48,311 nucleotides of DNA from NCBI GenBank assembly GCA_030539495.1, contig JAUNRX010000011.1:1-48311 (forward strand). The letters run 5' to 3'. Origin of the DNA: a bacterium. Lineage in GTDB: Bacteria; Bacillota; Clostridia; Lachnospirales; Lachnospiraceae. The notes under the pieces were generated by a model. That model was given only the letters and a program-made list of their open reading frames with translations, was not told the origin of the DNA and made no database searches. Both the position numbers and the translations under genes were made by a program. Position 1 is the stretch's first letter. Every line of letters starts with the position of its first letter. Positions 32,599-38,703 of this stretch are shown here, in pieces.

Positions 32599-33969
32599 AT
32601 GAATAAGGCTAGATTATGGAAATCTACCATTGGTATGACTTCCGCATTGGCATTGTTTATGTCGGTAAATACACTTTCTGTAAATGCAACACCAGCAGCT
32701 ACAGCAGATAGTCAAAACGTAACAGTTTCTTCAGCATTAGACGGATCTACAAACTCATTAGCAGGGATTTCCGTATCTTTAGATAATTACTATGCTGATA
32801 GCTTAACAAATATAGAGATGGCTGACGACGTGTTAGCGCAAAACGCAGTAGCAGCAGCTGCTACACCACAACCAAAAGTAGTGGAAGAGAAAAAAGAAGA
32901 AGTTAAAAAGAAAAGCAAATACGAAAATACAGGTATTGCTATCGTTAATAAATATGTAAACATTAGAAAAAAACCTACAACAGATAGTGACGTCGTTGGT
33001 AAGCTTTATAAAGGTGGATCCGCGAAAGTACTTAAGATTTCTGGAGATTGGGTTAAAGTTGAATCTGGTTCGGTTACTGGATACATAATGAAAGATTTCT
33101 TAGCAATTGGTGAAGAAGCTGAAAAAGTTGCTGAGGAATACGGACGTGTATACATGGTAGTTAAAACTGAGACATTACGTCTTAGAGAAAAGAAAAGTAC
33201 AGATAGCAAGATTCTTACATTACTTGCAAACGATGAAAAGTATGATGTACAGGCTTATAATAGTAAATGGGTAAAAGTAAAAGTAGATAATGAAGTTGGT
33301 TATGTAGCGAAAGAATTCGTTGATGTAAAGGTGAAATTTACTAAAGCAATTTCCATTAAAGAGGAACAAGAAGCAGCAGCGAAAAAAGCAGCTCAACAAG
33401 CAGCAATCGCAGCAGAAGAAGCAAGAAGACGTGAAGAAGCACAAGCACAAGCAAATAGCTCAAGTTCATCTTCCTCAAGTTCATCTTCAAACTCAAGTTC
33501 TTCAAGTTCATCTTCAAGTTCAAGCTCAAGTTCTTCCTCTACGAAGAAACCAAGTAGTTCTTCAAGCTCAACAAGCAATAAGACAAACTCTTCAGGTTCT
33601 ACGTCATCAAGCAAATCCGGAAGTGCTGTTGCAAGCTATGCAACTCAATTTGTTGGAAATAGCTACAGATGGGGTGGTACAAGCTTAACAAATGGTACTG
33701 ATTGTTCTGGTTTCACAATGTCTGTATATAGACATTTTGGTATCAGTATTTCTAGAACTTCATCTGCTCAATCTTCTTGTGGTAGAAGTGTAAGCACAAG
33801 CAGCTTACAGGCTGGTGATTTAGTATTCTATGGCAGCGGCGGATCTATCAGCCACGTAGCAATCTACATTGGCGGTGGAAGAATCGTTCATGCTAGTAAT
33901 AGAAGAGATGGTATTAAGATTTCAAGTGTAAACTACAAAACTCCAATCTGTGCAAGAAGAGTTTTATAA
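32599..33969 (+). CDS. Secreted SH3 / NlpC-P60 cell wall endopeptidase
   Basis: A 456-residue secreted peptidoglycan hydrolase. Signal peptide about residues 1-31 (KSTIGMTSALALFMSVNTLSVNA). Two bacterial SH3 domains follow: VNKYVNIRKKPTTDSDVVGKL to YIMKDFLAIG, and VKTETLRLREKKSTDSKIL to YVAKEFVDV. Then comes an alanine/glutamate helix (about 255-280), a long serine-rich linker of about 60 residues, and the NlpC/P60 catalytic domain with the cysteine in TDCSGF and histidines in SHVAIYIGGG and IVHASN. Likely cuts D-Glu to diamino acid bonds in peptides. Similar proteins often act in cell separation. GGAGG site 7 nt before ATG. Confidence 0.92.
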   Translation: MNKARLWKSTIGMTSALALFMSVNTLSVNATPAATADSQNVTVSSALDGSTNSLAGISVSLDNYYADSLTNIEMADDVLAQNAVAAAATPQPKVVEEKKEEVKKKSKYENTGIAIVNKYVNIRKKPTTDSDVVGKLYKGGSAKVLKISGDWVKVESGSVTGYIMKDFLAIGEEAEKVAEEYGRVYMVVKTETLRLREKKSTDSKILTLLANDEKYDVQAYNSKWVKVKVDNEVGYVAKEFVDVKVKFTKAISIKEEQEAAAKKAAQQAAIAAEEARRREEAQAQANSSSSSSSSSSSNSSSSSSSSSSSSSSSSTKKPSSSSSSTSNKTNSSGSTSSSKSGSAVASYATQFVGNSYRWGGTSLTNGTDCSGFTMSVYRHFGISISRTSSAQSSCGRSVSTSSLQAGDLVFYGSGGSISHVAIYIGGGRIVHASNRRDGIKISSVNYKTPICARRVL

Positions 33970-33974
33970 TATAG

Positions 33975-34009
33975 AAAAAGGTGGTCCTAAAGATAGGGCC
34001 GCCTTTTTT
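33975..34009 (+). terminator. Terminator of the NlpC/P60 gene
   Basis: AAAAAGGTGGTCCT pairs with AGGGCCGCCTTTTTT (two G-U pairs), ending in a six-T run. Confidence 0.9.
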
Positions 34010-34106
34010 GTTATATTAGGAGTGGTAAAAAATGTAAGTAATGATATAATAGACCTAGTTGATTTTAAAATAGAGATGAAAAATGTTTCATATTAGGAGG
34101 AATAGT

Positions 34107-34472
34107 ATGCAACAACAGGATCGTAGAAAAGATAGAAGACTTCCGATAAAGTTATATTTAGAAATAAACCATATGTTTCGACAAGGAGAAGAAGTAATTA
34201 ATGATATGGATGCTAAAATTGAAGTCATCAATATATCGAAGTCAGGAATTGGATTTATCAGTAAGGCAACATTACCCATTGATTATTATTTTAATGCAAG
34301 GATTGCACTATCAGAAAAGGAATATTTTTTTGCAGTAATTAAGATTAACCGTAAAAAGCAGTGCACGGAAGAAAGATATTTATATGGAGCCGAGTTTGTA
34401 GGATTAGCGCCATTCCTTGCAGATAAGATAGATGTGTACGAATACCATTTATATAAAGAAATAATGAAATAA
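34107..34472 (+). CDS. PilZ domain protein, c-di-GMP binding
   Basis: A 121-residue stand-alone PilZ domain. The two c-di-GMP contact motifs are visible: the arginine motif RRKDRR at residues 6-11 and NISKSG (D/N-x-S-x-x-G) about 30 residues later. The fold continues with YFNARIALSEKEYFFAVIKI. It would sense c-di-GMP and likely influence motility or surface behaviour. Start 34107 is chosen because AGGAGGA is 5-6 nt upstream; a longer frame from 34083 would include that site. Confidence 0.88.
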   Translation: MQQQDRRKDRRLPIKLYLEINHMFRQGEEVINDMDAKIEVINISKSGIGFISKATLPIDYYFNARIALSEKEYFFAVIKINRKKQCTEERYLYGAEFVGLAPFLADKIDVYEYHLYKEIMK

Positions 34473-34653
34473 TACATTTAAATAAGTAATATAATCTATT
34501 ACAATAGTTAGAAAACTATATAACTTTCAATACAGTCCACAAAATGTTAGAAAACTTTTTTTGGGTAAAAATTACTTGGATAAATTTAAATTGTGCAATT
34601 TGCACAAAAAAGAAAGTATTATATAGTCCTAAATTCCAAGAGAAACTGACATA

Positions 34654-34761
34654 TGTGGATAGACTGGATAAAACTATCCACAGGAAGATGTATGATAAAA
34701 TCAATAAAATTGAGTTATGCACCAAGTTATCCACTTTATCCACAAGTGAATGTGTGGAAAA
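34654..34761. other. DnaA-box cluster
   Basis: Five DnaA-box-like 9-mers occur in 108 bp: CTATCCACA on minus at 34654-34662, CTATCCACA on plus at 34674-34682, TTATCCACT on plus at 34727-34735, perfect TTATCCACA on plus at 34736-34744, and TTTTCCACA on minus at 34753-34761. The first two form a perfect inverted pair; the third and fourth abut. No dnaA or dnaN is near, so this resembles the non-origin DnaA-box clusters known from B. subtilis rather than oriC. Confidence 0.7.
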
Positions 34762-34986
34762 TGGGGTTCATAATTATTGTCAAGTTCGAATGTTTGTTTT
34801 GTTGTAAATGATAAATCAGTACTAAATTTAATTAATAGTTTTACTTGCTACTAAAAATGAATTGTCATGAAACTTAATGAAATAATGTAAATTATAAGCA
34901 TTATTGTAAAATAAGTTATAGTTATTAGTGAATATGGATATATAAGTATTAGTAACTAAAAAAGAGTGGATTAATTTGGATATCGC

Positions 34987-35015
34987 TTGATATCTTAAAG
35001 CTATATTGCTATAAT
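34987..35015 (+). promoter_or_regulatory. Predicted sigma-A promoter of hpf
   Basis: TTGATA at 34987-34992, 17 bp, then a perfect TATAAT at 35010-35015. Start of transcription would be near 35022, giving a leader of about 155 nt. The -35 sits in a GATATC-N4-GATATC hairpin (34979-34994). Confidence 0.75.
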
Positions 35016-35053
35016 ATTATTAAATAATACATAGTTCTTCAAATTACATAGCC

Positions 35054-35156
35054 TTATCAGAATGACGTTGTATTAGGATAAAAAAGCTTTTATAAGTACA
35101 TAACTCATATTAGAATAAAGCGATACATCCCAATATGAAAACTCCACTTATAAAAG
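35054..35156 (+). ncRNA. Structured leader of hpf
   Basis: CTTTTATAAGT (35087-35097) pairs perfectly with ACTTATAAAAG (35146-35156), enclosing CATATT (35106-35111) with AATATG (35132-35137); a smaller TTATC/GATAA hairpin (35054-35081) precedes it. The long stem ends 8 nt before the ribosome binding site. Structured leaders upstream of raiA/hpf are known in Clostridia (raiA motif); identity with that motif is not established here. Confidence 0.5.
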
Positions 35157-35177
35157 TTAAAAAAGGAGTTGGATCTT

Positions 35178-35708
35178 ATGAAATATATTATTAGCGGTAA
35201 GAACATTGACGTAACAAATGGTTTGAGATCAGCAGTATATGAAAAGATCGGTAAGCTTGAAAAGTTCTTTACTGATGAAACAGAGGTTCATGTTACATTA
35301 AGTGTTCAGAAGGACAGACAAAAGATTGAAGTAACAATTCCCGTGAAAGGTAATATCATACGTGCAGAACAAACAAGTGCGGATATGTATGTATCAATCG
35401 ATCTAGTTGAAGAAGTAATAGAACGCCAACTTAAAAAGTACAAAAACAAATTGACTCTACATAAACAACAGGCAGCAATTAATTTTAACTCTGCTTTTAT
35501 TGAGGAAGAGGATGATGATGACGAAACAATTAACATTATCCGTTCCAAACATTTTGCAATGAAGCCAATGGATGCAGAAGAAGCTTGTGTACAGATGGAA
35601 CTATTAGGACATGCCTTTTATGTATTTAGAAATGCAGATACTGATGAAGTAAATGTAGTATATAAGAGAAAAGGTAATACATATGGTCTGATAGAACCAG
35701 AATTTTAA
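35178..35708 (+). CDS. hpf: Ribosome hibernation promoting factor, long form
   Basis: Binds the decoding centre of 30S and dimerises 70S ribosomes into inactive 100S in stationary phase. A 176-residue long HPF: N-terminal S30AE domain MKYIISGKNIDVTNGLRSAVYEKIGKLEKFF, an acidic linker (EEEDDDDE), and the C-terminal dimerisation domain FAMKPMDAEEACVQMELLGHAFYVFRNADTDEVNVVYKRKGNTYGLIEPEF. The ATG at 35178 has AAAAGGAG 9 nt upstream; a TTG nine bases earlier is not preferred. Followed by a terminator and then secA, the same order as yvyD-secA in B. subtilis. Confidence 0.95.
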   Translation: MKYIISGKNIDVTNGLRSAVYEKIGKLEKFFTDETEVHVTLSVQKDRQKIEVTIPVKGNIIRAEQTSADMYVSIDLVEEVIERQLKKYKNKLTLHKQQAAINFNSAFIEEEDDDDETINIIRSKHFAMKPMDAEEACVQMELLGHAFYVFRNADTDEVNVVYKRKGNTYGLIEPEF

Positions 35709-35733
35709 AAATTAGAAAATTGAATATAATAGG

Positions 35734-35769
35734 AAAAGGGAAGCTAAGGAATGTTAGCTTCCCTTTTTT
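35734..35769 (+). terminator. Terminator of hpf
   Basis: AAAAGGGAAGCTAA pairs with TTAGCTTCCCTTTT around a 6-nt loop, ending in a T-run. Confidence 0.93.
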
Positions 35770-35790
35770 GCTTTATAGGAAATAAAAAGC

Positions 35791-35876
35791 GACATTCTCC
35801 TTTAGCGCGGGCAAAGTGTCTGTTCCTTACAAGGGACTTAAGGTGCGAGAGTGTACGGAACACGCACTTTGTTCTA
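35791..35876 (+). repeat. Dispersed structured intergenic repeat, copy 2
   Basis: Related to the element at 7934-8046. Core stem 35813-35826 pairs with 35857-35870 (AAAGTGTCTGTTCC with GGAACACGCACTTT) around a 30-nt loop of the same length, again with GACTTA and GAGAGTGT at the same offsets. ACATTCTC at 35792-35799 can pair with GAGAGTGT at 35847-35854 (one G-U), reproducing the crossing pairing of copy 1. The flank GCGACATTCTCCTTTAGC is the near reverse complement of GCTGAAAGGAGTATGTCGC in copy 1. Followed by a TCTAGA-N6-TCTAGA repeat. Confidence 0.65.
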
Positions 35877-36129
35877 GAGTAAAATCTAGAGCTTGAGTCA
35901 TAGAAATAATATCTTGTCGATTACGATAAGAATGAGAAAAAGCGATATGAGGTATTTCTTCTTGATTACAGTTTTAAAAGCGTGAAAAATGTCATATATA
36001 TAAGGCTTTATGCGACTTTCCTTAGGGAAAAAAGAGTTGCTATGTCTATATAGTAATGTTACAATAAGACTATTATGATAATAGTAGAAGACTATTACTA
36101 ACTTTAGAGAGCACAGGAGTGAGTACAAT
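35877..36129. other. Upstream region of secA
   Basis: No gene or clear sigma-A promoter pair was found. It contains a near-palindrome ACTATTAT/ATAATAGT at about 36070-36087 and ends in the secA ribosome binding site AGGAGTGAG. Confidence 0.4.
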
Positions 36130-38703
36130 ATGGGTTTAATAACGAAACTATTTGGAACACATAGCCAAAGGGAACTTAAATTGGTTTATCCAATTGTTGA
36201 TAAAATTGAAGCTTTGGAACCTGAATTTGAGAAATTAACAGATGAAGAGTTAAAACATAAAACCATAGAATTTAAGGAACGTCTTGCAAAAGGTGAAACG
36301 TTAGATGATTTATTAATAGAGGCATATGCAACAGTTCGTGAAGCTGGTAAACGTGCATTAGGTATGAGACATTATAGAGTACAGTTAATGGGTGGTGTAA
36401 TCTTACATCAAGGACGTATTACAGAAATGCGTACTGGTGAAGGTAAGACATTAGTAGCAACATTGCCAGCATATTTAAATGCACTTGAAGGCAAAGGCGT
36501 TCATATCGTAACAGTAAATGACTATCTTGCACAGCGTGATGCGGAAGAGATGGGAAAACTTCATAGATTTTTAGGACTTACAGTTGGTGTTGTACTAAAC
36601 TCCATGACAAATGATGAGAGAAGAGAAGCTTACAACTGTGATATCACATATGCAACAAATAATGAATTAGGATTCGATTACCTAAGAGATAACATGGTTA
36701 TTTACAAAAATCAGCTTGTAATGCGTGATTTACACTATGCAATCATCGATGAAGTCGATTCCGTATTAATCGATGAAGCTCGTACTCCATTAATTATTTC
36801 TGGTCAGAGCGGAAAATCTACAAGATTATATGAAGCTTGTGATATCTTAGCTAGACAATTAGTTCGTGGTGAAGAAGTAGAATTATCCAAGATGGATATG
36901 CTTATGAGCGAAGAAAAGGAAGAAACCGGCGATTTCGCTGTAAATGAAAAAGATAAGAATGTAACACTTACATTACAGGGTATTCAAAAGGTTGAAAAGT
37001 TCTTCCACTTAGAAAACTTAGCAGATCCTGAAAATCTTGAAATCCAACATAATATTATCTTAGCATTACGTGCACATAATCTTATGTTCAAAGATAAAGA
37101 CTATGTAGTAAAAGATGACGAAGTTCTTATCGTAGATGAATTCACTGGTCGTATTATGCCAGGTCGTCGTTACTCTGATGGTTTACATCAAGCAATCGAA
37201 GCAAAAGAAGGAGTAAAGGTAAATCGTGAAAGTAAGACACTTGCGACAATCACATTCCAAAACTTCTTTAACAAATATAAAAAGAAATCTGGTATGACTG
37301 GTACTGCATTAACAGAAGAAAAAGAATTCAGAGAAATCTATGGATTAGACGTTATCGAAGTTCCAACAAATCTTCCTGTACAACGTGCAGATCATCATGA
37401 CGCAGTTTATAAGACTCGTAAAGAAAAGATTCATGCAATTATTGAAGATATTAAGGCATCTCATGAAATTGGACAGCCAGTATTGGTTGGTACGATTACA
37501 ATTGAAGGTTCTGAGGAAATCAGCTCTTTATTAAAGCGCCAAGGAATTCCTCATAAAGTATTAAATGCCAAGTTCCATGAACTTGAAGCGGAAATCATCA
37601 AAGACGCAGGTCAAAAGGGTGCAGTAACAATTGCAACAAATATGGCTGGTCGTGGTACCGATATCAAGCTTGGAGAAGGCGTAACAGAAGTAGGTGGTCT
37701 TAAGATCATCGGTACGGAACGTCATGAATCCCGTCGTATTGATAATCAGTTAAGAGGTCGTTCTGGTCGTCAAGGCGATCCAGGTGAATCTAAATTCTAC
37801 ATCTCTCTTGAAGATGATTTAATGCGTTTATTCGGTTCTGACCGCTTAATGAGCATGTTTAACTCTTTAGGTATCCAAGATGGAGAAGAAATTCAACACA
37901 AGATGTTAACAAGTGCAATTGAAAAAGCACAGATGAAGATTGAGAATAACAACTTTGGTATTCGTAAAAACTTATTAGAATACGATCAAGTAAACAATGA
38001 ACAAAGAGAAGTAATCTATACAGAACGTCGTCGTGTATTAGATGGCGAAAGTATGAGAGATACGATTATCAAAATGATTGGTGATGATGTAGAACACATC
38101 GTAAATAACTGTATTAGCGATGAACAAATGTCAGAAGAATGGGATATCCCAACATTAAACCAAGAATTACTTCCTGTCATTCCAATCGAACCAGTTCATT
38201 TAACAAAAGAACAACTTAACACATTCAGTAAAGATCAGTTAATTCAAGAAATCAAAGAACAAGCTGTGAAATTCTATGAAGGAAAAGAATCTGAGTTCCC
38301 AGAACCAGAAGCAATTCGTGAAATTGAACGTGTTATCTTATTAAAAGTTATCGATAATAAATGGATGGCTCATATCGATGATATGGATCAATTACGTCAA
38401 GGTATTGGTTTACAAGCATATGGTCAACGCGATCCATTAGTAGAATATAAATTTGCAGGATATGAAATGTTCGATGAAATGATCGAATCTATTTCTATGG
38501 ATACAGTTCGTGCATTAATGCATGTACGTATTGAGCAAAAAGTAGAACGTGAAGAAGTTGCTAAAGTAACTGGCACAAACAAAGATGAGTCAGCTGGTAA
38601 AGCACCTGTAAAACGTAAAGACAAAAAAGTTCAGCCAAATGATCCATGCCCATGTGGAAGTGGCAGAAAATATAAACAATGCTGTGGTAGAAAAGCATTA
38701 TAA
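36130..38703 (+). CDS. secA: Preprotein translocase ATPase SecA
   Basis: Motor ATPase that drives proteins through SecYEG. 857 residues, normal length. Walker A MRTGEGKT near residue 100, DEAD-like [15 protein letters not shown] near 205, the preprotein crosslinking domain after it, [13 protein letters not shown] and [12 protein letters not shown] of the second nucleotide-binding fold, [26 protein letters not shown], and the C-terminal SEC-C zinc motif [23 protein letters not shown] precedes ATG. Lies between hpf and prfB, 36 bp before prfB, as in B. subtilis. Confidence 0.97.

Follow-up and report, generated by a model that had tools for sequence, protein, structure and literature searches.

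A conserved DnaA-box cluster outside oriC, anciently associated with hpf in Clostridia, as a candidate element for limiting free DnaA

DnaA-box clusters are defined, in the part of PMC7561715 consulted, as at least three DnaA boxes with a mean spacing under 100 bp. In Bacillus subtilis, the oriC-proximal clusters of Okumura et al. 2012 are presumed to lower the amount of free DnaA, and the deletion of six DnaA-box clusters results in early initiation, as related in excerpts of PMC5295017 and PMC13220808. In Escherichia coli, according to the section of PMC11317965 available, DnaA binds best to pairs of boxes that are 2–3 bp apart. How free DnaA is limited outside oriC in Gram-positive bacteria is nevertheless little understood. 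A search of the open-licence PMC literature found nothing joining the DnaA box with hibernation promoting factor, and nothing related by title on the DnaA box in Lachnospiraceae. The locus described here, from a genome of this family, is best read from sequence comparison, with a rough probability of 0.6, as an autonomous DnaA-box cluster outside oriC that restricts the amount of free DnaA and in many cases is followed by a LexA-like site.

The window, meaning the whole stretch of 48,311 nucleotides that was analyzed, is contig C88 of a 257-contig, 3.96 Mb assembly (genome G000). The gene order in it is NlpC/P60, PilZ-like gene, boxes, hpf, secA, and prfB, and the features are as follows.

32599–33969, + strand: gene for an NlpC/P60 and SH3 wall hydrolase, which often keeps the element where hpf is elsewhere
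34083–34472, + strand: PilZ-like gene (20.3 bits, under the Pfam cut-off of 22.5), the last gene preceding the element
34591–34607, no strand assigned: inverted repeat TTGTGCAA-TTGCACAA, upstream of the boxes
34654–34662, − strand: extra DnaA box, inverted relative to R1; retained in the nearest relative (L012), not widely
34674–34682, + strand: DnaA box R1 (CTATCCACA), 41 bp (start to start) upstream of box A
34715–34723, + strand: DnaA box A (TTATGCACC), weaker, with 2 mismatches, 3 bp before box B
34727–34735, + strand: DnaA box B (TTATCCACT), abutting box C
34736–34744, + strand: DnaA box C (TTATCCACA), perfect
34753–34761, − strand: extra DnaA-like box (TTTTCCACA); retained in L012, not widely
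34788–34802, + strand: LexA-like site GAATGTTTGTTTTGT, 43 bp past box C, with 1 mismatch to GAAC-N4-GTTTTGT
34987–35015, + strand: best promoter-like site preceding hpf, TTGATA-17-TATAAT with TG before the −10
35178–35708, + strand: hpf (HPF/YfiA family, TIGR00741)
36130–38703, + strand: secA

An ORF at 34544–34807 that spans the boxes gave no NCBIfam or Pfam match at E 0.001 and was taken as spurious. The block TGCACAAA recurs upstream of the boxes in relatives. An Rfam scan of the window returned no family at the gathering score, and 34560–34860 had no match in plasmid and phage collections. RNAalifold consensus folding of 39 unlinked elements, a test of low power, gave 0 kcal for real and shuffled alignments on both strands, thereby offering no indication of a structured RNA.

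The initial annotation had described five boxes within one mismatch of TTATCCACA at 34654–34761, and all five were located, at 34654 and 34753 on the − strand and at 34674, 34727, and 34736 (perfect) on the + strand, along with the inverted pair and the two abutting boxes that it had claimed. Its list overlooked the weaker box A at 34715, which belongs to the conserved array. Five boxes with at most one mismatch in 108 bp make a cluster by the definition given above, and such clustering does exceed chance, the maximum in 150 first-order Markov simulations of the window being 2. The whole window holds 18 boxes with at most one mismatch against a chance mean of 17.15, so that the total is unremarkable and the clustering exceptional. 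The expectation of less than one perfect box per window is borne out by the assembly, which has 59 in 3.96 Mb, approximately 0.7 per 48 kb.

The intergenic region holding the DnaA boxes is AT-rich (GC 0.297 for 34001–36000) and the core also adjoins dnaA in a few genomes (L215, L234, L400), which might suggest that the site is oriC itself, an additional origin, or a degenerate copy. Such an identity is highly improbable against the position of the site, which is neither adjacent to dnaA nor at the GC-skew switch. The dnaA gene (C257:323–1657) lies on another contig, beside rpmH with boxes between them, consistent with the earlier statement that the cluster is far from dnaA, and the GC-skew check proposed for excluding the origin showed positive skew on both sides of the site. 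The distance from the element to dnaA, measured in three genomes, is 236 kb (5% of the genome) in the complete congener G003, about 5% of the genome in G129, and 14% in G073.

Other concentrations of DnaA boxes were encountered as well. A second non-oriC cluster is located at G000:C257:147870–148058 (L002, L003), between murC and a dnaD-like gene, and core matches occupy the equivalent murC–dnaD position in five other genomes (L228, L231, L233, L239, L243); this cluster may link DnaA to the expression of helicase-loading genes. At G000:C241:13264–13920 (L006, L007), three repeat copies with paired DnaA-like boxes surround a small cysteine-rich gene. Perfect TTATCCACA boxes are unusually many at the dnaA flanks of two genomes, 17 in L175 (the genome of L053) and 23 in L322 (G221).

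Comparison across genomes reveals a distinct geometry. In the window, the array runs head-to-tail as R1, 41 bp, A, 12 bp, B, 9 bp, and C (start to start), and the layout recurring upstream of hpf in relatives, all on a single strand, consists of a box, 41–42 bp, a weaker TTATACAC/TTATGCAC box, 12 bp, TTATCCACA, 9 bp, and TTATCCACA. Box conservation in related genomes, which the initial annotation had put forward as a check, holds widely for R1 (+), A, B, and C; the boxes at 34654 and 34753 are not in the widely conserved array. A core pattern of 30 bases with up to 3 mismatches, controlled by the reversed pattern, matched 134 of 200 family genomes (one per genus, partly metagenome bins; control 0) and 119 of 393 genomes of a class sample (control 0), the latter figure being 104 of 373 outside the family. 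One match is present in 96 of the 134 family genomes and more in 38, some of the second matches representing the murC–dnaD cluster or oriC. In the 66 core-less family genomes, a variant-box search gave hits in 10 genomes versus 3 with the reversed pattern, and because the latter also gave hits, variants were taken as firm only upstream of hpf (5 of the 10). The other 56 of the 200 have no element under the core or variant-box pattern; thus, the element is not essential to the family.

Among 122 non-redundant family elements, the core letters are near invariant, partly by construction since the elements were chosen by the core pattern. R1 lies outside that pattern, and an R1-type + box is found 39–43 bp upstream of box A in 83 of the 122, with 72 counts at 41 or 42. 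R1, A, B, and C share one orientation in this set, and some lineages have added boxes at 76 (16 counts) and 85 (12 counts). In hpf-linked loci outside the family, a box is 30–33 bp from A in 28 of 37, a distance about one helical turn less. Genomes of family f47 (G356, G409, G442, G485, G543, G611; L191–L196 and further hits) have as many as three copies of the core. One copy lies upstream of hpf in all four genomes in which it was examined, and the other examined copies adjoin an RNase III-like and an exonuclease-like gene (L193) or a glycosyl hydrolase 3 gene (L194).

The conserved array is often followed by a second site, termed LexA-like only. The motif GAAC-N4-GTTTTGT, allowing up to 2 mismatches, lies about 42 bp after box C in 81 of the 122 family elements, compared with 1.3% in shuffled regions and 25 of 122 for the reversed motif, whose higher background comes from composition. 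The window site at 34788 is the best match to it in the whole 48 kb and has GAAT where the family motif has GAAC. In six other families, AAAC-N4-GTTTTGT (as the motif AAACA-N2-YGTTTTGT) follows the core at 14–15 bp in 14 of 14 hpf-linked loci, and it was not seen in f42 (L206–L208). Elements away from hpf have the family motif in 38 of 41 cases (20 exact), and other elements in 43 of 81 (11 exact). Nor is the motif confined to the element, as it occurs with up to 2 mismatches in 55 of 68 hpf upstream regions with the core and in 10 of 36 without (600 bp, both strands). The exact GAACNNNNGTTY precedes lexA in 10 of 12 genomes, against 2 of 12 for the control CAAGN4TTGY, and a search for LexA motifs in Clostridioides difficile included GAACnnnnGTTT, as given in the consulted part of PMC4234289. 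Farther downstream in unlinked elements, a TTGAC-N9-GTCAA-like block and AATTGTC-like blocks recur.

The genomic neighborhood of the element is as telling as its internal layout. Element and hpf could be joined in 94 of the 134 core-bearing family genomes, those with both among the matches listed (the element was listed in 113 of the 134), a join that misses some core-bearing genomes having no hpf match. Among these matches, the element is 140–452 bp (from the core end) upstream of hpf, always on the strand of hpf, in 63 of the 94 genomes and away from hpf in 29 of the 94; 2 of the 31 matches not linked to hpf represent other loci, namely murC–dnaD (L233) and oriC (L234). Of the 29 unlinked elements, 25 are within 3 kb of trxB and/or an NlpC gene and 4 are elsewhere; for one of the 25, in G209, the contig stops 231 bp downstream, so hpf linkage is still possible there. 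Outside the family, where 96 of the 104 core-bearing genomes were examined (mostly with one copy each), hpf is downstream on the same strand in 37 of the 96, distributed over 17 families, at 150–743 bp from the core start; among the rest, dnaA is close by in two, hpf is at another place in the stretch in one, and the others are without the genes tested. These arrangements fit an ancestral order of trxB, NlpC, element, hpf, and secA, which would have broken on either side while the element survived. Membership of the element in an NlpC or trxB gene unit is ruled out by hpf loci with neither gene upstream (L167, L246, L247).

The consistent position raises the possibility that DnaA regulates hpf, the array serving as an operator or enhancer upstream of the gene, through which ribosome hibernation would follow replication state or the level of DnaA-ATP. 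The same-strand upstream location in 63 of the 94 family genomes and in the 37 genomes of 17 other families speaks for it, as does the AAACA-N2-YGTTTTGT motif after the core in all 14 loci noted above. Yet the 29 of 94 family genomes among the matches listed that keep the element off hpf weigh against such regulation, as does its opposite orientation to hpf, seen in Alkaliphilus serpentinus (L116) and, among elements with divergent boxes, in L104, L105, and L107. In addition, at least 9 of 36 unlinked loci have their next long ORF on the opposite strand, the family shows a threefold range of distances to hpf, and the best predicted hpf promoter-like site in the window begins 243 bp past box C. 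Before hpf, 7 promoter-like sites were found versus 6.3 expected in shuffles, and only that best one scores 11/12. Given this distance, relocation, and inversion, direct repression of hpf is disfavored, and regulation of hpf by DnaA is doubtful, at odds of roughly one in four. Accordingly, the initial annotation was right in recognizing a genuine non-origin DnaA-box cluster, whose placement before hpf is conserved in many Clostridia, and the coupling of replication state to ribosome shutdown, which it had raised as a possibility, is not supported as the main function, given the relocated and inverted copies; coupling to hpf as such is possible. Since 29 of the 94 genomes hold the element elsewhere, linkage to hpf is an old association and not a requirement. 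From gene order, the location before hpf appears old in Clostridia and far from random without being the whole reason for conservation.

The signature DHTT of DnaA presumably contacts the DnaA box, and the boxes of the element evolve in step with DnaA. In genomes with a CC-type box C, DnaA has DH[T/S]T in 24 of 24 and TTATCCACA is present at the dnaA flanks in 23 of 24, whereas both figures are 0 of 9 for hpf-linked elements with other boxes (Fisher p 2.6e-8 for DH[T/S]T and 2.6e-7 for TTATCCACA at the dnaA flanks, with relatedness ignored and G230 and G231 alike). These nine comprise TTATCAACA elements in G156, G187, G161, G067, G097, and G135, a TTATTGACA element in G227, and TTATTAACA elements in G230 and G231, all upstream of hpf, and their DnaA signatures are DHAT, NHAT, NHTT, or THGT. 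In 6 of the 9 (G156, G187, G067, G227, G230, G231), the TTATNNACA seen most often at the dnaA flanks is the matching box; in the remaining three, that box is tied at one copy (G161), one of several (G097), or absent (G135). The natural pairs of DnaA and box seen here are DHTT-TTATCCACA, DHAT-TTATCAACA, NHAT-TTATTAACA, and THGT-TTATTGACA.

Several genomes were left out of this count. G110, G124, and G207 have variant hits unconfirmed by hpf, and adding these three doubtful cases blurs the separation, with DHST in G124 and one TTATCCACA at the dnaA flanks in G207. Also left out were G234 and G235 (L045, L080), which combine TTATCAACA-type elements with NHTT, no TTATCCACA, and few boxes at dnaA; the genome of L104, with two dnaA genes; and G036, G232, and G237, with DHTT and TTATCCACA. 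DHTT is found in 8 of 40 core-less genomes versus 16 of 22 with the core, an association between absence of the core and loss of DHTT that is reported and given no weight because relatedness is uncorrected.

Since boxes, dnaA flanks, and DnaA signature change together, it is very likely, on this comparative basis, that DnaA binds the element. The same three-way change stands against the alternative that some protein other than DnaA, recognizing a DnaA-like site, occupies the boxes, and the chance of this seems slight.

Within the family at large, DHTT varies to DHST, DHAS, DHAT, DHGT, NHAT, NHTT, NHST, and THGT (L177, L180, L182, L183, L184, L294–L353, L414–L430), and the boxes near dnaA shift along with the signature in several genomes, amounting to a drift of the DnaA box code. 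One bin, the genome of L104 (L176, L184), contains two full-length dnaA genes with the signatures DHTT and NHAT and differing adjacent boxes, reflecting either two mixed strains or a true second dnaA.

How the element might work can be pictured from its layout. DnaA would bind the A–B pair, 3 bp apart, cooperatively, spread from it to the abutting box C, and meet R1, about four helical turns away, on the same face of the helix, yielding a small, compact oligomer or a loop. The complex would hold DnaA and thereby set the amount free for initiation at oriC, as presumed for the oriC-proximal clusters of B. subtilis, and a second regulator at the LexA-like site may act on it, which is offered as a suggestion. 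By analogy with B. subtilis, the leading expectation is that removal of the element would cause early initiation. Two points sit uneasily with a cluster that merely limits free DnaA: a few additional boxes make a small sink, and the hpf linkage in 17 further families exceeds what a neutral sink would need.

Alternatively, the element could alter the nucleotide state of DnaA, like datA or DARS of E. coli, with a cofactor at the LexA-like site. This would suit the second site at about 42 bp in the family and the single copy in 96 of 134 genomes, given that E. coli datA and DARS2 too combine spaced boxes with a second protein (PMC5742627, in the part consulted). However, DnaA on the core boxes I and II of DARS interacts head-to-head, according to the same excerpt, whereas the conserved boxes here are head-to-tail and the inverted pair of the window (34654/34674) is not widely conserved, by which DARS-type action is disfavored; moreover, B. 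subtilis is described in the available portion of PMC13220808 as being without IHF, datA, and DARS. An effect on nucleotide state is therefore an unlikely account, at about one chance in ten. Less remote, though still tentative, is the proposal of a Clostridia-wide counterpart of datA and DARS. It would be a portable element for the control of DnaA, with a characteristic geometry and an ancient location before hpf, linking replication control with a LexA-like signal, and its boxes would have been rewritten several times as the recognition residues of DnaA changed. If this holds, the DnaA box, commonly regarded as almost universal, has drifted inside one family. A conserved element evolving with DnaA provides a defined test target in a major gut family, and the natural pairs of DnaA and box offer a direct route to how an essential initiator alters its DNA code yet keeps its sites.

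Taken as a cluster that limits free DnaA, the element resembles the oriC-proximal clusters of B. subtilis in having DnaA boxes outside oriC, here 5–14% of the genome from dnaA in three genomes. Unlike them, it is one element of characteristic geometry, traceable through the family and found before hpf in 17 other families; to our knowledge, B. subtilis has no hpf-associated DnaA-box cluster. With E. coli datA, it shares a non-coding nature, spaced DnaA boxes, and a candidate site for a second protein, whereas datA needs IHF, which B. subtilis lacks according to the part of PMC13220808 consulted, and has another box layout. It is like DARS1 and DARS2 in being intergenic, in the conserved spacing of the core boxes, and in being retained in relatives, and differs from them in the box orientation discussed above. 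Finally, the A–B pair, 3 bp apart, corresponds to the double DnaA boxes of E. coli as presented in the available section of PMC11317965, from which the element is set apart by the abutting box C, the distant R1, and the lack of a tie to one promoter.
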